Positions 6,057-27,800 of a stretch of 27,931 bases of DNA are shown piece by piece. Every line of letters starts with the position of its first letter. Positions within the stretch are counted from its first letter, which is position 1. The DNA is from a virus. The translations under genes and the position numbers were made by a program. Where the stretch lies: positions 1-27,931 of the IMG/VR virus record IMGVR_UViG_3300021354_000029; one strand, given 5' to 3'. The notes under the pieces are model-generated. The model did no database searches. It worked only from the letters and a program-made list of their open reading frames with translations, and had not been told where the DNA came from.

Positions 6057-9000
6057 ATGAACGTAGGAAGCAATCAATTAACTCTCAATAATATCATTAA
6101 TTTTCTTGCCAGCTTAGCTGCTGGTCACAAGATGATTAGTGCATTTGGTTATGGCCCTATATATGACCTTACCAATGCAAAGAATCAAAGCTATCCTTAC
6201 TTATGGGTAGAACCACAAAGAAGCATTATCCACAAGGACCATATTGAATTAAAACTTAAGTTATTCCTTATGGATGAAGTATCTAAGGGTAATGAGAATA
6301 GAAATGATGTTCATTCAGATACCTTTGGTACACTACTTCAATTGAGAGCTTATATTTATAAGGATTTAGCAGTATGGTTACTTCCTAGTGATGATTCAGA
6401 TATTGAGCCTTTATATGAAAAGTTTGATAATGATACTACTGGATGGTCTTTAAGTCTTAATTTAAAGTTTGATTGGAGAGCTGATGTATGTACTATACCT
6501 GGATTATATTTAAGTGGAACAACCTTTCAAACTGGTTGTGACTTTATCAATGTATCCTCTACGAATTATCTACCATTAACTGGTGGACAATTAACTGGTG
6601 ATTTAAGTGGTACAACCATTTATATGAATGATTATTATTCTGGAGGTACCGAGTTATCAACTGTTATTTATGATATAGCAAGTAGTGTTGTACCGCCAGC
6701 GAGCAATTTATATTGGACAAGTGGTAGTACAGGAGCATATTCATTAAAGACAATTAATGATACAACAACTGATGCCACAGGAAATTATGCTATTGCAGAA
6801 GGATGTGAAACAACAGCTCAAGGTGATTATTCACACGCTGAAGGAAATGCTTCTATTGCCTCTGGAACTACCAGCCACGCAGAAGGAGCAAGTACACAAG
6901 CACTTGGTGTTAATTCACACTCCGAAGGTGATAGTTCGATAGCTCAAGGAGATACAAGTCACGCTGAAGGAAATTCAATTGCTATAGGATTAGTTAGTCA
7001 CGCAGAGGGTTATTCAACTACAGCAACTGGAGACCATTCACATTCTGAAGGTGATACCACACAGGCAAATGGAATTTCTTCTCATACTGAAGGATTCTAT
7101 TCAATAGCACAAGGAAATTTTTCACACGCTGAAGGACAATCAACAGAAACAGTAGGTTATAATTCTCATTCTGAAGGTAATTCAACAATAGCTTATGGTA
7201 ATAATTCTCACGTTGAAGGTGATAGTAGTATAACAAATGGTGATGCAAGTCACGCTGAAGGTTATCATACAACAGCAACTGGAGACCATTCACATTCTGA
7301 AGGAGCATTTACACAAGCAATTGGAGAGGCATCTCACGCTGAAGGCCTTGCTTCACAAGCTGTTGGTGCTTATAGTCACGCTGGTGGTGTTAATTCAATA
7401 GCAACAGGTAGTACATCTTTTGTTTTTGGTAATAACAATAAAGCAAATGGGAATAATACAGCTGTTCTTGGTGGTAATAATATAACTGGAACTGAAGATA
7501 ATAGTACTTATGTACCTACCTTATTCGTGATGAATGCGTTAACTGATAACTCAGCAACCAACTTATTAGTGAGAGAGGCAACAGGTGAGATAAGGATGAG
7601 GGCGTTATCAAGTATAAGTACTGTTACTATCACAGGTGGTACTTATAATCCAAATACTGGTGTAACAACTCTTTATAATTCAACTGGTGGTACCATATCA
7701 ATTAGTGGTTATTATACAGGATTTACTGGAGGATTAGTAAGTGGTGCAACTCAATTTACAGGTGGATTAACAGCTAATACGCTTAACTTATTATCAGCAA
7801 CAACCAATAATGGAGTAACAAATGTATTAGCGTTGAATCCTATAACGAATCAAGTTGTTTTAAGAACGCTTATCCCAGACAATACGGTTACAGGGTTCAC
7901 ATTTAATCCATCAACATATGATTTAACAATTACTCAGAATAATGGATTATTACCACTTACTACCAACTTAGGTATACTTGCAAGTGATATGGTTGTTACT
8001 GGAGGTACATATAACCCAAATACAGGTGTAGCAACATTCACTAATAATAGCGGTGGTACCTTTCAAGTTACAGGATTCTTAACAGGTCATACTGATACAT
8101 ATGTAACTGGAATGACATTTTCATCCAATACGCTTACGTTATATCAGACACAAGGTAATGCAAGTGTTTCTCAGTTGATAAATAATTTTTCTTCTCTTTC
8201 TGCAAATTCTTTTTCTGCAACGACATATTATGGTTTACCTGTTGATGTGCTAGTTACTGGTGGTACATATACCAACGGTACAGCTATATTTACTAATAAT
8301 ACAGGTGGTACATTTAGTGTAACTGGATTTAGTACTAGTACAGCAACAGCTTTCACAGGTGGAACAGTAACAGGTGCAACTAATTTCACAGGAGGATTAA
8401 CTGGTAATACTTTTTCTGCAACAACAGCCATTATAGGTAATAGTGGTAATGAGGGTGGTGGTATAACAGTAAATGGGACCACATATGATTCTTCTTTTAA
8501 GGTAAGTGATATTAATGGAAATAACTTAGCACAAACAATCCTTCATCGACATTCAACAACACTTGAACCTTTAATTGTAGGTGCAAGAAGCAATTCAAAT
8601 AATAATGGTCACACAGGTGTAACAGCTAATCAAAATGTATTTTCAATTTATGGTGTTGGTTATATAGGAAATGATTACAAACAATTCGGACAAATAAGTC
8701 TTGGAGTTGATTCATTAGGTTCTTTAAGTAATACTTCATCTCCTGGTATAATTAAATTTTTAACTACTCCAAATGGAAGTGTAACGCCTATTGTTGCAGT
8801 TACTATTAATAGTCAGCAGCAATTAACAGCAAATGCAATAAGTGCTACTACTGTTACTGCAACTACTCTTACAGCAACAACATATCAAGGTATACCGAGT
8901 GTTCTTGGTGTTCTTGCTGATGGACAGAGTGGTGTGATTGCAACTGGTGTATTAGGATATAAGGTATTAGATTTTCCTGGAATTATAACTGGATATGATA

Positions 9001-13981: not shown

Positions 13982-16900
13982 ATGAATGCTAGAATAGAAC
14001 TATTTGTTAACCTAACTGGAAGTACTGCACAGGGTCAAGTTGACCTTTTTGGTGATGAGCCTATAGTGCTTAAGATGGCAGCTGCTGATATACGTGATAT
14101 AAAGTCACGTAAGTCTAGTTATAGTCAATCCTTTGTCGTACCTGGTACAAAGAATAATAACTTATTATTCAATAGTATTTATAATATAGGTATTGATAGT
14201 CAATTCGATGCAAGGAAGAAAACCCCAGCATTCTTACAAGTTGATAGTATTCCAGTAATGACAGGTAATCTTCAGTTAACTGGTATTAATGTAGATGATG
14301 AAAAGAATGTAACCTATGAAGTAAGTCTTTTTGACGATACTGGTAACTTTATAGATGCCTTAGGAGCAACAGAGTTAACTGATTATAAGTGGAATGAATT
14401 GGACCATACGTGGTCATATTCATCTATAACCAATTCTTGGACTGGTTCATCTCAACCCTATTTCTATCCACTAATTGACCTAGGGTACGATTGGAGCGTT
14501 TCTAGCTTAAATTCTGGACAAGGAGTTAGCTTTCAATATCCGATGTATCCAGCTACACAAGTTAAAACAATCATTGATAAGATATTTTCAAGTACAGGAT
14601 ATACCTATACATCTAATTTCTTTAATTCAGATTATTTCAAGAACTTATATATACCATTTGTAGGTTTAAAGGAGTTAGCAAATACAACAACCTTTGCCAC
14701 AAGCAGACAATTCCTTATTCATTCAACAACAGGATATACGGTAAGTAGTGGTATAACCTATTCAAATATAGGTGGAATCGTTCAGAATACTACAATAGTA
14801 ACTTCAGAGAATAGATTATTTTTTAATAATGTAACACCACCAAACTTCAATAATAGTGGTTTATTTAATATTACTACATCTGATTATACAGCTGATACAG
14901 GACTTGAGGTGCAATTCTTTATTAATGTTGGCTTTTCAGCTGATACAAGTAGTGGTTTAACTCTATTAGGTTCTGCCTTACCAGGAGATATTTCCAATTA
15001 TTCAAACTTGATAGTTAATTTCTATCGTGATGGTGGGACAGGTACTCCAGTATTAGCTTGTCCTCCAGTATATGTTGGTATACCTACTTCACAGAATACA
15101 GGTTATACTGGTAATTTATTTTGTCAATCAACACCATTAACAGCGGTACCAAATGAAAAGTTTTGGGCTACCTATAAGGTTTACTTTGTTCTTCAGAATC
15201 CTAATTCTGGAACTACACATACATTTAATTTTGGCTTTATTCCAACTAATACATATGAATATAATAATGTAAGTCAAAGAATCGTTCCATTTCAAATGGT
15301 TGATTATGGTTCTTGGATTCCTAAGAAGATTAAGGTTCTAGATTTTCTAACAAGCATTATCACGATGCACAACCTATATGTTGTACCAGACCCAAATAAT
15401 CCTAAGAGTCTTATTATAGAACCTAGAGATGATTGGTATTCAAGTGGAAAGACACTTGATTGGTCAACTAAATGGGATGCTAGCGTACCAGTTACACAAC
15501 AATTACTATCAGAACAAACCAATAAGAGAATTGTATTCAGCTACGCTGAGGATACAGACTTTTATTCTGATAACTATAAGAAAGCTACCAATCGTATCTT
15601 TGGTGATTATTATCAAGTAGTTGATAATGATTTTGCTGTACAAGATGATTATAATATAGATACAATATTTGCACCAACACCAAGCGTAGCTGTATTGGAA
15701 AGTGGTTCTTTTGTTCCACCAGATTTAACAGGTTTTACTGCTAACGAATTCGTTATCCCTAAGATAGGCAAGACGGATAGCAATAATCATTTTGGTTCAA
15801 CCAATTATAAGATTCGTATACTTCAAAAGAATCCTAATAACTTAATACCTCTAACCAATGGTGATAGTTGGATGCTTAATTATACCAAGTACACAAGTTA
15901 TCCTTATTTAGGAATGCTTAGTCATCCTAGTGTAATGTCAGCTGCAACCGATATAAGTTTTGGACAAGTAAATTATGAATTTTATACACTTCCAGCAATA
16001 ACCAATAATAACCTAGTGAATAAGTATTGGCAGAAGTATCTTAATCAAATAATGGATAAGGATGCGAAGATAGTAACTTGTAACCTATATCTTAAACCAA
16101 ATGATATAGCTACGTTATCGTTGAATGATACTATATTTATGGATGGTCTTACATCTGATGGTGGTCATTATTATTTAATCAATAGTATTGAATACACACC
16201 AACAGCAAATGTAACTAGTAAGGTTGAGTTGATTAAGTTAAATGAAAAGTTTGTTAGTACAAGTGGAAGCAGTCCAATAAGTAATGTATTTGGGCAAATA
16301 CCACTTCAGAGTATTAATATGGCTGGTGGACAGAGTTATTCAACAGGTAGCATAGCTATGGGTAATAATGTTGTTATTTCAACTCAAGCAGCTGGAAGCG
16401 TTGCCATAGGGGATACAATAAGTGTTGGCAGTCCAAGGAGTCTAGTAGTTGGTAGTGGAAGTACAATAGGTGGTGGAGCAGCTGGTAGTGTTATCTTTGG
16501 TAATGGAATATTAGCAACAACAGGTAATACTGTATATATGAATAATGCTGTTATAAGTAGTGGTGGAACCATTAATGGAGTATCAGCGGCACAAATAGTA
16601 GCTAATAGTAGTATATGGAGTGCTGGTACTGGTACATATTCAATCGTAGCAATTAACGATACTAATAATGTGGCTAGTAGTAATTATGATTATGCAGAAG
16701 GAGCTACAACAACAGCAAGAGGTGGTGCAAGTCACGCTGAAGGAAATATAACAACTGCCTTTGGACAAACAAGTCACGCTGAGGGTGACCATACAACAGC
16801 TATAGGTATTGTTAGTCATTCAGAAGGTGGATATACAACAGCACAAGGAGATTATAGTCACGCTGGTGGTTATGGTATTAATGTATTACATTTTGGTGAA

Positions 16901-23740: not shown

Positions 23741-25321
23741 ATGGAAAACGATTTTTTAGACGAATTAAGAGCAAATCAACCAATCAAGAGTGATACTATG
23801 GTAGCACACTCTTTCAGTAAGTATAATGTACCAAAGTTTATTGAATCTCCTGGAAAGGATTGGATTCAATCTGGTAGTGATAACCTATTCCCTCAATATC
23901 TTGTGGATATGTTCGGTAAGTCATCTACTCATAACTCTATCATCCTTATTAAACAAAAACAAATTGCTGGTGAAGGATGGAGTATTGATGATACAGCTGA
24001 CGCTGACCAAAGTGCAGCACTTAAACAATTTATAAGTAGACCTAATAAACGTGAGAGTCTTAATGCAATCCTTTCTAAGGTTGCTCTTGACCAACAATTA
24101 TTCGGTTATTGGACCCTTGGAATTAAATGGTCAGATTGCAGAACAAAGATTGAAAGCGTATACCATATAGATGCAGCTAAGATTAGAATTGGTAAGCCAG
24201 ATGATGATTCTGAAGAATATATTGAAAGTGATTATTGGTATTCTGATGATTGGTCTAAGTATCGTAAACCTAAGTTTACACCAGAAAGAATCGCTAGATT
24301 CTCGCCTAGTAATAGAATAGACCAATTTCAATTGCTATTGGTTAAGAAATATACTCCAGGACTTAATTTCTATTGCTTCCCAGATTATCAACCTTGCTTA
24401 AATGCAATTGAATTACAATACGAATTATCCAACCTACAATTAAATAGTATTAAGAATGGCTTAAGCCCTTCACTTTTAATATCTATGAATTCTGGTGCAC
24501 CAAGTGCTGAACAACAAGATGTTAACTATAAAGCATTCAATAACCTTTATAGAGGAAGTGATAATGCTGGTAAGTTCATATTATTTTATAATAAGGATAA
24601 ATCAAGTGAACCAACTATTACACCACTTGAGACATCTAACTTACATCAATTATATGGTGAATTATCTAATAGTATCCGTGACCAGATTATCGAAGGTCAC
24701 CGTATTCCAAAGATACTTGCCAGCGTTAATAGTCCAGGGGAACTTGGAGCCTCTAATGAAATTGCTCAAGAACAAGAACGTTTTTATAACACAGTTATCG
24801 CTCCAGAACAAGTTGAAATTGAAAATGTAATCAACGAATTGCTTCATATCAACGGATTTAGCGTTAAGTTATATATCAAAGACCTTCAACCAATATCGTT
24901 CCAGTATAATGAAGCTACACTTCTACAAATACTTACCGTAGATGAAATGAGAAAGAAACTAGGATATGCACCATTATCTGAATCAGATAGACAAGAGTTG
25001 TATAGCCGTAATAAGATTGAAAAACAACCTAGAGTACCTTCAACCCATACAGCTATGGAAAGCGAACCTAGTGCTCCAGTTAATGATAATATCAAGAACT
25101 TAAGTGCTAAGCAACATCAACAAATGCTTAGAGTAATACGTCAAGTATCTAAAGGACAATTAACAAGAGAAGCTGGTAGCGTACTATTAAGTACTGGTCT
25201 TGGGTTAAATTCTGATGATATAAATGCACTTTTACCAGAAGTTGAAGATGAAATGGATGCTGTTAAACCATATACTGACCAAACAGACGATAAACTAACA
25301 CACAAAAAATTACTTAAATAA
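23741..25321 (+). CDS. Portal protein, HK97-like family
   Basis: The 526-residue protein has the order of portal subunits: an N-terminal clip/wing region (SGSDNLFPQYLVDMFGKSSTH, NSIILIKQKQIAGEGWSI), a helical stem with DQQLFGYWTLGIKW, a wing/crown region (AAKIRIGKPDDD...), NLQLNSIKNGLSPSLLISMN and DQIIEGHRIPKILASVNSPG with GELGASNEIAQEQERFYNTVIAP in the crown, which is the part most alike among phage portals. It forms the dodecameric DNA channel at one capsid vertex, docks TerL during packaging and later the connector. Length is typical. A charged, possibly disordered C terminus follows. The location downstream of capsid and 17.7 kb from terL is unusual. It starts directly at the base after the previous stop. 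Confidence 0.8.
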   Translation: MENDFLDELRANQPIKSDTMVAHSFSKYNVPKFIESPGKDWIQSGSDNLFPQYLVDMFGKSSTHNSIILIKQKQIAGEGWSIDDTADADQSAALKQFISRPNKRESLNAILSKVALDQQLFGYWTLGIKWSDCRTKIESVYHIDAAKIRIGKPDDDSEEYIESDYWYSDDWSKYRKPKFTPERIARFSPSNRIDQFQLLLVKKYTPGLNFYCFPDYQPCLNAIELQYELSNLQLNSIKNGLSPSLLISMNSGAPSAEQQDVNYKAFNNLYRGSDNAGKFILFYNKDKSSEPTITPLETSNLHQLYGELSNSIRDQIIEGHRIPKILASVNSPGELGASNEIAQEQERFYNTVIAPEQVEIENVINELLHINGFSVKLYIKDLQPISFQYNEATLLQILTVDEMRKKLGYAPLSESDRQELYSRNKIEKQPRVPSTHTAMESEPSAPVNDNIKNLSAKQHQQMLRVIRQVSKGQLTREAGSVLLSTGLGLNSDDINALLPEVEDEMDAVKPYTDQTDDKLTHKKLLK

Positions 25322-25324
25322 TCA

Positions 25325-25966
25325 ATGGCTACACCTATTCAGTATACTGTTTCCCCCTCTACCGTCCTATTTTGTGACGCAGACTACGTTAAGCAAACCA
25401 CTTCAATGAATGCAGATGTTGAAGAAGGATTAATCCGTACAGGTATCGTTACCTGTCAAGATAAATATATCCTTCCAGCAATGGGTAGTTCTCTATTTGA
25501 AGACCTAAAGTCACAAATCGTTAGTAATAACCTATCAAGTGATTATGAGGTATTATTACTTAATTACATTAGACCAGCACTTGCATTCTCTTGTATAAGT
25601 GAAATCATTCCAATGATGGTATTCAGACTTCAAAATAAGGGACTTGAGATAAAGCACTCAGAGAATTCAAATAGCCCTAGTATTGAACAAATGGATTACT
25701 TGCGTAATCACTATACAAGTACAGGACAATATTATTTACAAAGACTGTCACAATTCCTAAAGGACCAATATAGTCAGTATAATAAGTATCCATTATACTA
25801 TAATAACGGTGTATCTGGTATTGATGTTATTCAACCAAATGCAACAAGTTATCAAGCTGGAGGATTATATATTCCAGGATTAAATACAGGTGGACTTGGA
25901 CTTGGTGGGTTAGATACAACTGGATGGGGAATATCTCGTGAACCAGGAAGCGGAAATATAATGTAA
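25325..25966 (+). CDS. Head-tail connector (adaptor) protein, DUF6712-like
   Basis: A 213-residue helical protein following the portal. Segments such as TGIVTCQDKYILPAMGSSLF, LLLNYIRPALAFSCISEIIP, VFRLQNKGLEIKHSENSNS and QYYLQRLSQFLKDQYSQYN resemble gp6/gp15-type adaptor proteins of Bacteroidota phages, which form the ring below the portal; I believe the family is DUF6712, but this is from memory. The last ~45 residues are Gly/Leu/Thr-rich (GLNTGGLGLGGLDTTGWG), an extra low-complexity tail. The neighbourhood (portal immediately upstream, three bases apart) supports the call. Confidence 0.65.
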   Translation: MATPIQYTVSPSTVLFCDADYVKQTTSMNADVEEGLIRTGIVTCQDKYILPAMGSSLFEDLKSQIVSNNLSSDYEVLLLNYIRPALAFSCISEIIPMMVFRLQNKGLEIKHSENSNSPSIEQMDYLRNHYTSTGQYYLQRLSQFLKDQYSQYNKYPLYYNNGVSGIDVIQPNATSYQAGGLYIPGLNTGGLGLGGLDTTGWGISREPGSGNIM

Positions 25967-25997: not shown

Positions 25998-26162
25998 ATG
26001 GAACGTATAATGCATCACGAACACTTAAGTATCTGGTTAACAACTGGAAGTGCACTAGGAATCACCCTAGCAAATATAAACCCAATCCTAACCTGTCTAT
26101 CACTTGTATTAGCTATAAGTTATACAGGATATAAGTTTTGGAAAGAATTTAAAAATAAATAG
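25998..26162 (+). CDS. Small membrane protein, candidate lysis-cassette component
   Basis: A 54-residue open frame from ATG 25998 to TAG 26160-26162: MERIMHHEHLSIWLTTGSAL, then a hydrophobic run GITLANINPILTCLSLVLAI (about 21-40) and a basic end YKFWKEFKNK. One or two membrane segments with a positively charged C terminus fit a small holin- or antiholin-like protein, and the lysozyme gene is downstream. The stop is TAG, as in the other small membrane gene in this region. Function is not proven. Confidence 0.55.
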   Translation: MERIMHHEHLSIWLTTGSALGITLANINPILTCLSLVLAISYTGYKFWKEFKNK

Positions 26163-26164
26163 GT

Positions 26165-26269
26165 ATGGAAATGCCAAGTGCTAAGGAGTATTTGCTTAGT
26201 ATAAGAGCTAAGATAGGACCAGATGTATTAATAACTGGTCCTCGCACAGTTAACTATGAAAAGCTTTAA
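26165..26269 (+). CDS. Very small ORF, 34 aa, unknown
   Basis: ATG 26165 to TAA 26267-26269 encodes MEMPSAKEYLLSIRAKIGPD and a C terminus LITGPRTVNYEKL. It starts two bases after the previous stop and fills a gap between membrane-protein genes, so it may be translated, but it is short and an 8-bp inverted repeat lies inside it. No family recognised; treat as tentative. Confidence 0.35.
   Translation: MEMPSAKEYLLSIRAKIGPDVLITGPRTVNYEKL
26215..26242. repeat. 8-bp inverted repeat within a small ORF
   Basis: AGGACCAG (26215-26222) and CTGGTCCT (26235-26242) are perfect complements separated by a 12-base AT-rich loop. No T run follows, so it is not an intrinsic terminator. It could be an RNA-processing hairpin upstream of the tRNA and lysozyme genes, a protein-binding dyad, or coincidence. 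Confidence 0.4.
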
Positions 26270-26307
26270 TTTGAATTAAATGACCCAAATATAAAATTTA
26301 AAGATAA

Positions 26308-26496
26308 ATGAAAAAGTTATTTGAAAAATATTATCAACCAACCCCAACCAATATTCGTAAAATCGGGGATAGCTTATTAGCAGCATCAACTATTGTATCA
26401 ACATATGCAATCAGTAATGATTATAAAGCTATTGGGATAGCTGCGTTGATAGGTGGTGTAGTTGGTAAGTTCTTAAGCAACTTCTTCACAGAATAG
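26308..26496 (+). CDS. Small membrane protein, holin candidate
   Basis: The 62-residue product starts MKKLFEKYYQPTPTNIRKIG, then has one hydrophobic segment (DSLLAASTIVSTYAI), a short NDYKA turn and a second (IGIAALIGGVVGKFLSNFF), ending acidic. The positively charged N terminus followed by two helices with a hairpin turn fits a class II holin. It lies just upstream of the endolysin gene, which lacks a signal sequence and so needs a holin. I recognise the type (KxWxPTPxxxRKIGDxLLAAS...) from Bacteroidota phages, where its function is not settled. Stop codon is TAG, rare here. Confidence 0.6.
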   Translation: MKKLFEKYYQPTPTNIRKIGDSLLAASTIVSTYAISNDYKAIGIAALIGGVVGKFLSNFFTE

Positions 26497-26502
26497 ATAT
26501 AT

Positions 26503-26574
26503 TGCGGTTCGGAGAAATGGTAACTCATCGGGCTCATAACCCGAAGATAGTAGGTTCGATTCCTACAGCCGCTA
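26503..26574 (+). tRNA. tRNA-Met (CAU), initiator type (fMet)
   Basis: A complete 72-nt cloverleaf: acceptor GCGGTT/AGCCGC with an unpaired 1:72 position (T26503 against T26573); D stem GAG/CTC with GG in the loop; anticodon stem TCGGG/CCCGA with loop CTCATAA (anticodon CAT at 26535-26537); five-base variable region AGATA; T stem GTAGG/CCTAC with loop TTCGATT; discriminator A26574. Three marks of bacterial initiator tRNA are present: a mismatched 1:72 pair, three successive G-C pairs at the bottom of the anticodon stem, and the A11:U24-type D-stem pair. Position 8 is C rather than the usual U, and CCA is not encoded. It lies between the holin candidate and lysozyme genes. Confidence 0.85.
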
Positions 26575-26589
26575 CTAGAGTTTTAAGAT

Positions 26590-27057
26590 ATGGACCATAT
26601 CACACATATTAACGAAGAAGGATTGGAGCTTATCAAGTCATTTGAATCATTTGTTAACCATCCTTATCCAGACCCAGCCACTGGGAAAATGCCTTATACA
26701 ATAGGCTATGGTACCACCATTTATCCAAATGGTATTAGGGTTAGTCTATCTGACCCTAATATAACTGAAAAACAAGCCTCAGACCTTCTATTAGCAAACC
26801 TAAAGCACTATGAAGAAGGTGTTGATAGCCTTACAACTGATAACCTCACCAGCAATCAATTCTCAGCCCTTGTAAGCTGGGTGTATAATCTAGGGTTAAA
26901 TAACCTTAAATCAAGTTCCTTATTGAAACTTATCAATTCAAATCCAAGTGACCCACTTATTAAAAATGAATGGCTTAAATGGTGTTATGCAAATGGACAC
27001 AAGATGGATGGGTTATTACGAAGAAGAGAAGCAGAATTTGCATTATATTGTAAATAA
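26590..27057 (+). CDS. Endolysin, GH24 (T4-type) lysozyme
   Basis: A 155-residue muramidase that hydrolyses the MurNAc-GlcNAc bond of peptidoglycan. The catalytic triad of T4 lysozyme is visible: E19 in IKSFESF, D28 exactly nine residues on in YPDPATG, and T37 in YTIGYGTT. The rest fits GH24: QASDLLLANL, LTSNQFSALVSWVYNLGLNN with the conserved AL-S---N-G block, and RRREAEFALY at the end. No signal peptide or SAR helix is present, so release depends on a holin, probably one of the small membrane proteins just upstream. It is preceded by TTTTAAGATATG and followed by a terminator, closing the late operon. Confidence 0.9.
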   Translation: MDHITHINEEGLELIKSFESFVNHPYPDPATGKMPYTIGYGTTIYPNGIRVSLSDPNITEKQASDLLLANLKHYEEGVDSLTTDNLTSNQFSALVSWVYNLGLNNLKSSSLLKLINSNPSDPLIKNEWLKWCYANGHKMDGLLRRREAEFALYCK

Positions 27058-27058
27058 A

Positions 27059-27077
27059 AAGGGCCCCATGGGCCCTT
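27059..27077. terminator. Bidirectional terminator between convergent genes
   Basis: AAGGGCCC (27059-27066) pairs with GGGCCCTT (27070-27077) around a CAT loop, giving 8 bp of mostly G-C stem. On the plus strand it is followed by AATTATTTT; on the minus strand by TTTTTATTTA, a good U tract. It sits between the lysozyme stop (27057) and the stop of the minus-strand gene (27080), so it can end transcription from both directions. Confidence 0.75.
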
Positions 27078-27079
27078 AA

Positions 27080-27511
27080 TTATTTTAGTGTATTTTTCTT
27101 TTTGAATATCTCCAAGAACATCTCCTGTTCCTTAACCTTCTTCTTCTTATATCTATTGAAATCTCTTAACTTATAACCAATCCAACTCCTTCTGCTTGAA
27201 GGACTGAGGCTTATCATTTCATCGGTATTTAGATTACGAATCTGTACCTGTCCTTCCAATTCACATATCTCTAGTGTACCCTCAGAATTCAAATAGAATA
27301 CCTTCTTAATGGTATCTATGTATTCCTCTTTATACTTGAATAACTCTTTCAACTTAGGTATATCACTTAGACTGATATCACCATAGGGTTTAAATACTGA
27401 AATAAGGTCATTCTGTGACTCTAGGAAGATGCAAGTATAGTTTCCACAGGAATACCTTATACATACCCTATCATTCTCCAGAACGCTTAGATTTAAGTTA
27501 TAGGTCGGCAT
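27080..27511 (-). CDS. Hypothetical protein, 143 aa
   Basis: The product is mixed beta (TYNLNLSVLENDRVCIRYSC, YTCIFLESQNDLISVFKPYG) in the first half and strongly basic at the C terminus (YKLRDFNRYKKKKVKEQEMF, IFKKKNTLK). A middle section (GTLEICELEGQVQIRNLNTD) could be a second small beta module. I do not recognise it. It overlaps the upstream minus-strand gene by 14 bp and ends at the bidirectional terminator, so it is the last gene of a leftward operon, probably early genes in contrast to the rightward late genes. Confidence 0.55.
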   Translation of the reverse strand: MPTYNLNLSVLENDRVCIRYSCGNYTCIFLESQNDLISVFKPYGDISLSDIPKLKELFKYKEEYIDTIKKVFYLNSEGTLEICELEGQVQIRNLNTDEMISLSPSSRRSWIGYKLRDFNRYKKKKVKEQEMFLEIFKKKNTLK

Positions 27512-27800
27512 CTCTTAATCGTTGATTGATTTGTCTTTTAATATTATCGAAGTTATACTTAACTTGAGATTGGATATATTCCAATTCCTTATCTAGGATA
27601 TCACACATATCAATTTCTGTAAGACAGAATAGGATTTCTTTGCAATGGTTGGTAGTTAGATTAATCATATCACGAATGACGGCAGCCTCTTCAAAGTTCT
27701 CATCTTCGATGGCTTTAAGAAGCTTATAGGTTTCTAAGTAGGTATAATCAACAAAGTCATCAAGGACTTCATTTACCAGAGTGTCATTAGTTTCTTTCAT
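27498..27800 (-). CDS. Small helical protein with a UVR-like motif
   Basis: One hundred residues, almost all helical and acidic. Residues about 26-48 read KLLKAIEDENFEEAAVIRDM, which matches the UVR motif of UvrB/UvrC (L-x-x-A-I-x-x-E-x-F-E-x-A-A-x-I-R-D), a helical hairpin used for protein-protein contact. Nothing else of UvrB or UvrC is present, so this is a stand-alone UVR-hairpin protein, perhaps contacting host repair proteins or a phage partner. The rest is a coiled-coil-like segment (LTEIDMCDILDKELEYIQSQ). It lies in a leftward operon with the next gene downstream (14-bp overlap). Confidence 0.55.
   Translation of the reverse strand: MKETNDTLVNEVLDDFVDYTYLETYKLLKAIEDENFEEAAVIRDMINLTTNHCKEILFCLTEIDMCDILDKELEYIQSQVKYNFDNIKRQINQRLRDADL

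Follow-up and report, generated by a model that had tools for sequence, protein, structure and literature searches.

An initiator-type tRNA of a phage-only clade at the end of the late operon of a small phage

The window, i.e. the whole stretch of 27,931 nucleotides analysed here, is a linear IMG/VR fragment of 27.9 kb in which a single tRNA is found. This tRNA lies among late genes, whose arrangement is given below together with some comparisons to G502 (IMGVR_UViG_3300020042_010077, 29.7 kb, also handled as L345), a distant relative found through the pattern of the tRNA itself.

23741-25321, + strand: portal protein (phrog_11226, E 1e-33), 30% identical to the G502 portal; gene order as in G502
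25325-25966, + strand: conserved protein after the portal, in a connector-like position (phrog_35048)
25998-26162, + strand: 54-aa membrane-type protein, holin candidate (weak match to the holin family phrog_920, E 0.0098)
26165-26310, + strand: short reading frame interrupted by an in-frame TAA (26267-26269; 34 + 13 codons), overlapping the next start codon
26308-26496, + strand: 62-aa membrane-type protein, 41.8% identical to a protein of LR756502
26503-26574, + strand: initiator-type tRNA, anticodon CAU (ARAGORN, Rfam, profile scores and sequence features)
26590-27057, + strand: endolysin, GH24 phage lysozyme (PF00959, E 1.9e-33; phrog_7)
27059-27077, + strand: terminator-like hairpin, on both strands, closing the late operon
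27498-27800, - strand: convergent gene with a UVR motif (PF02151, E 7e-7; weak similarity to G502, E 0.009 over 19 aa)

The packing around the tRNA is tight: the stop codon of the 62-aa gene is 6 nt upstream and the ATG of the endolysin 15 nt after A73, while two minus-strand genes follow beyond the hairpin. The first-pass annotation had placed the tRNA inside a lysis cassette. In the window this holds, with a GH24 endolysin downstream and a weak holin match upstream; as a conserved position it does not, as no endolysin follows the tRNA in G502 (see below). For each gene next to the tRNA, the best match among annotated phages is in LR756502, whose genome is 642 kb (50.3% for the endolysin); the two counterparts sit at separate places there. 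The small frame at 26165-26310 reads MEMPSAKEYLLSIRAKIGPDVLITGPRTVNYEKL, stop, FELNDPNIKFKDK, stop, so that it continues past its in-frame TAA; a general recoding is unlikely since TAA ends 25 of the 29 genes of the window. Nearly all these genes (27/29) start with ATG, none (0/29) is preceded by a Shine-Dalgarno-like motif (AGGA, GGAG or GAGG), and six TAATG stop-start overlaps occur among them. A sigma-70 promoter scan, which does not cover Bacteroidota promoters, revealed no excess in the region.

ARAGORN makes only one tRNA call in the window, a tRNA-Met(CAT) at 26503-26575, and the Rfam family RF00005 matches 26503-26574 with 56.9 bits (E 5e-10); both describe a complete cloverleaf with a CAU anticodon. 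A chance tRNA match was rejected. No other Rfam family, including GOLLD and tmRNA, was found in the window, even with E values up to 1. The acceptor end comprises U1.U72, G2:C71, C3:G70, G4:C69 and A73, which is followed by CTA, so that CCA is not templated. The anticodon arm reads TCGGG-CTCATAA-CCCGA, thus with GGG/CCC pairs at 29-31:39-41. In the D stem A11:U24 is present and A13.A22 is mismatched, which weakens this stem; position 8 is a C where U8 is usual, and position 26 is an A. C8, the A13.A22 mismatch, the missing CCA and the tight spacing go beyond what the first-pass annotation had listed. Compared with shuffled sequences, the gain in folding is only modest (z -1.6).

All the features from which the first-pass annotation had proposed an initiator, i.e. 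the CAU anticodon, the U-U at 1:72, the three G-C pairs and A11:U24, are indeed present in the sequence. Of 9917 annotated bacterial CAU tRNAs, those with U-U at 1:72 are 207 initiators, one elongator Met and one Ile2; A:U at 11:24 is shared by 4430 initiators, and no elongator has it (PMC5143459). Initiation and re-initiation require a 1:72 mismatch, for recognition by the formylase, and three G:C pairs, for binding to the P site (PMC2268962); the tRNA of the window has both, with no Watson-Crick pair at 1:72 and three consecutive G-C pairs at 29-31:39-41. We scored it with two sequence profiles—used in place of the covariance models initially suggested—built from genomes of the phylum of a Bacteroidota centre: one of initiators (31 genes, 13 distinct) and one of elongator Met/Ile2 CAU tRNAs (26 genes, 17 distinct). 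It obtained 58.7 bits with the former vs 18.6 with the latter. An elongator tRNA-Met or a tRNA-Ile2(CAU) was accordingly rejected: the paired 1:72 and C11:G24 are absent, and U1.U72 and A11:U24 stand in their place. Taken with the hallmark frequencies, these scores strongly support the initial call, and judged by its sequence the tRNA is clearly of the initiator type.

The tRNA resembles the Bacteroidota tRNA-fMet in its CAU anticodon, non-paired 1:72, G2:C71, C3:G70, G4:C69, A11:U24, GGG/CCC pairs and A73, and its anticodon arm is identical to that of host initiators. U-U is also the commonest 1:72 pair in the sampled hosts, but the search pattern favoured U-U. On the other hand it differs from the Bacteroidota tRNA-fMet by C8, A13.A22, A26, the acceptor stem and the sequence after the anticodon stem (GAAGAT instead of GAAGGT), and the closest full-length host match is only 82% identical (395 genomes of the same phylum, 369 of them with a match). 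U8, which belongs to the general tRNA consensus and does not define initiators, is found in 86 of the 87 sampled host initiators. By contrast C8 occurs in 12/103 viral and 0/87 host initiator-type tRNAs, and A13.A22 in 16/103 and 0/87 respectively; as both samples come from pattern searches, these figures are contrasts and not population frequencies.

In a tree of initiator tRNAs, which is weak evidence as it is built on 72 positions only, the tRNAs of the window and of G502 group together (0.97) and are nested in a phage-only clade of 13 members without any host (local support 0.92). The marks of this clade that the tRNA of the window displays are C8, A13.A22, the GGAGAAATGG D arm and the phage-only grouping. 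The other members belong to large phages (L002, L348, L349, L351, L352, L354, L358, L359, L361, L362 and L364), which share with the window the D arm GGAGAAATGGTAACTC, C8 and the initiator hallmarks; with a relaxed pattern the same D arm was recovered in 19 viral stretches. The contexts differ: many of these tRNAs come from large phages that are rich in tRNAs or also encode a tmRNA or a GOLLD RNA, whereas in the window the phage is small and a single tRNA sits at the late-operon end. The tRNA of L002, a phage contig of 48.9 kb with 31 tRNAs, is identical to that of the window at 64 of 72 positions. All eight differences fall in stems or at 1:72, including three compensatory double changes and one pair changed to G-U, a pattern which shows, at the sequence level, that the tRNA is under structural constraint.

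Further RNAs accompany the tRNAs of this clade in large phage contigs. In several of them the initiator-type tRNA is immediately preceded, on its 5' side, by a GOLLD RNA (RF02032, 256-318 bits):

L349, 4751-5227, - strand: GOLLD RNA (RF02032)
L353, 1526-2002, - strand: GOLLD RNA (RF02032)
L359, 955-1440, - strand: GOLLD RNA (RF02032)
L358, 1977-2493, + strand: GOLLD RNA (RF02032)

The proximity of GOLLD to tRNAs is already known, and one GOLLD RNA was originally noticed 3' of a Met tRNA (PMC12286853). At least 11 contigs have a tmRNA (RF00023) in the same stretch as an initiator-type tRNA (L349, L353, L355, L358, L361, L348, L002, L352, L357, L356 and L364), and a 144-aa frame judged SmpB-like by eye is present in L349, L353 and L364. 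A second CAU tRNA accompanies the C8 initiator in L002 (4166-4240), L348 (2477-2548) and L356 (1380-1451); that of L002 combines initiator-like ends with a CAAGG/CCTTG anticodon stem, and the two others are related to it.

The tRNA of G502, also the only one of its record, is identical to that of the window at 69 of 72 positions. The three differences are G9A and a compensatory swap in the T stem (sequence positions 50 and 62, A-U to U-A). The late genes of the two phages follow the same order, while their proteins are mostly 22-38% identical, apart from one stretch of 52% in a tail-type protein. By contrast a 77-nt block that includes the tRNA reaches 96% identity (E 1e-29): it is the strongest DNA match between both records, its alignment stops within a few bases of the tRNA borders, and the remaining alignable stretches are about 68-77% identical. 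In G502 the portal is followed by the phrog_35048 protein, a holin (phrog_199, a family other than that of the holin candidate of the window), the tRNA, a terminator hairpin and minus-strand genes. The hairpin, AAAGGCCCGTAAGGGCCTT, stands directly 3' of the tRNA and is similar to that of the window, and the next minus-strand gene weakly resembles the UVR-motif gene. Since no endolysin separates the tRNA of G502 from the terminator, what is conserved is the link to the late-operon 3' end and not that to the endolysin. The shared gene order and arrangement support, as far as sequence comparison can, a common ancestor for both; a later exchange of the tRNA may also have taken place. Besides, two distant tail-type regions of the window (7251-7492 and 16733-16870) both match positions 29201-29439 of G502, which points to a repeated module common to the two phages.

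G502 is the only relative found with this arrangement. No such tRNA appears in the partial stretches of G007, G009 and G011, which have related portals, nor, for the window kind, in the available stretches of 22 terminase relatives (about 40% at best), two of which carry some unclassified tRNA. The cultured Nonlabens phage P12024S, with a distant portal, has no annotated tRNA, and single-protein pattern searches of viral contigs with the portal and the endolysin found no relatives.

Initiator tRNAs are nevertheless not rare in phages. At least 119 viral stretches matched the core initiator pattern, some of these matches being integration sites, so that the initial statement that phages usually carry elongator tRNAs understates how common the initiator type is. 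Nor is a lone initiator unique: among the 80 metagenomic contigs examined, roughly 15, which are 32-81 kb long and may be fragments, have a single full-length tRNA placed clear of the contig ends, in varied contexts. In the literature consulted, mostly non-subscription papers, phage tRNAs of the initiator type are mentioned only in passing. The annotated tRNA-Met of the crAss-like phage cr114_1 and of Bohxovirus have, as in the window, an initiator-like D stem and few accompanying tRNAs; they differ by their third anticodon-stem G-C pair, replaced by A-U or U-A, and by their gene context, the tRNA of cr114_1 lying just before the terminase gene. Initiator tRNA fragments without a proper 5' part adjoin frames that look integrase-like by eye in L062, L044, L065, L071, L084, L088 and L094, and initiator tRNA genes thus look like a common phage integration site.

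What, then, could the tRNA do at this place? Its initiator-type sequence, structural constraint, conserved position and phage-only kinship are visible from sequence comparison, and a phage-only family together with the same place in a distant relative indicate that it is probably functional in the virus rather than accidental. We rather favor, with reasonable though incomplete confidence, a functional initiator tRNA of a phage lineage which, from the end of the late operon, supplies start-codon decoding for the late genes. The tRNA would be co-transcribed with the structural and lysis genes, excised from the late mRNA by the host RNase P and 3' nucleases, and completed with CCA by a host enzyme—most Bacteroidetes tRNA genes do not template their CCA (PMC5143459). 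It would then receive methionine from the host MetRS, be formylated by the methionyl-tRNA formyltransferase of the host, and be used by IF2 on host ribosomes. With every late transcript one extra initiator would be made, so that the supply of start-codon decoding would grow with the late mRNA load, a dosage benefit that we infer. The beneficiaries would be the late genes with their AUG starts, TAATG couplings and lack of Shine-Dalgarno-like motifs. C8 in place of U8, the A13.A22 mismatch and the modest fold score count against a function, as does the finding of a single relative with this arrangement. A boost of initiation late in infection nevertheless remains the best explanation that these comparisons suggest for the tRNA.

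The phage copy could instead replace host initiators destroyed by toxins or defence nucleases, of the VapC type or others, either by dosage or by resisting enzymes that read the D arm, position 8 or the acceptor stem. Initiator tRNA is cut by VapC enzymes, phage tRNAs widely counter tRNA-cleaving defences (PMC10264068), and C8, A13.A22, A26 and the acceptor stem all distinguish the tRNA of the window from those of hosts. However, phages are reported to generally avoid tRNA-fMet where VapC-LT2 targets it (PMC10264068), and a late-operon position would deliver the replacement late. Moreover, nucleases of the anticodon loop should cut the phage copy too, its anticodon arm being that of host initiators; escape from cleavage through an altered sequence, which had also been proposed, is thus unsupported for these enzymes. 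Additional copies might still allow an escape, and nucleases that recognise other parts of the tRNA might still be evaded; we hold replacement as a whole for unlikely. The tight packing could also evoke a processing element, the excision of the tRNA cutting the lysis mRNA between the 62-aa gene and the endolysin, leaving the endolysin with a nearly leaderless 5' end and setting the timing of lysis. This is very improbable: in G502 the tRNA stands directly before the terminator with no gene to release, a plain tRNA would suffice and the initiator hallmarks need not be kept, and gene 10684 has a leader similar to that of the endolysin, TTTTAAGATATG.

A neutral passenger from a large tRNA-rich phage, whose loss is still to come, would agree with the nearest kin being found in such phages, like L002. 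We give it equally little credit: the place is kept in G502, the identity of the tRNA is 96% vs about 30% for the proteins, and a compensatory change has occurred. As to an attachment site, or the relic of an integration into a host initiator tRNA gene, several viral contigs do hold only the 3' part of such a gene beside integrase-like genes, further partial matches being weak. Here, however, the tRNA is complete, including an acceptor stem of its own, and is kin to phage tRNAs. An integration site was rejected on the best host match of 82% and on the lack of any match to Phage_integrase (PF00589) in the window and in G502, which leaves this origin hardly credible.

Beyond late supply, the C8/A13.A22 clade might be a phage-specialised initiator, tuned for initiation on phage mRNAs without Shine-Dalgarno motifs or for escape from host handling, and belonging to a wider takeover of translation start and rescue; we regard this as speculative and rather doubtful. 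A C at position 8 cannot carry 4-thiouridine. In the large relatives a phage tmRNA is often found close to the tRNA of the same clade, and a GOLLD RNA sometimes immediately precedes this tRNA. If such a takeover exists, the phage of the window and G502 would represent its pared-down form, with a single tRNA linked to the late-operon end.

Within the scope of these searches two things are new: a C8 clade confined to phages and, in a small phage lineage, a late-operon-end position that has been conserved. The reasons for which phages carry tRNAs have long been debated, mostly in terms of codon supply and escape from nucleases. An initiator tRNA brings no codon capacity, and that of the window has no altered anticodon loop, so that a single conserved initiator in a phage of roughly 30 kb isolates a third idea, the control of translation initiation. 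The phage of the window would thus offer a simple system, in which the deletion of one gene could test this control.
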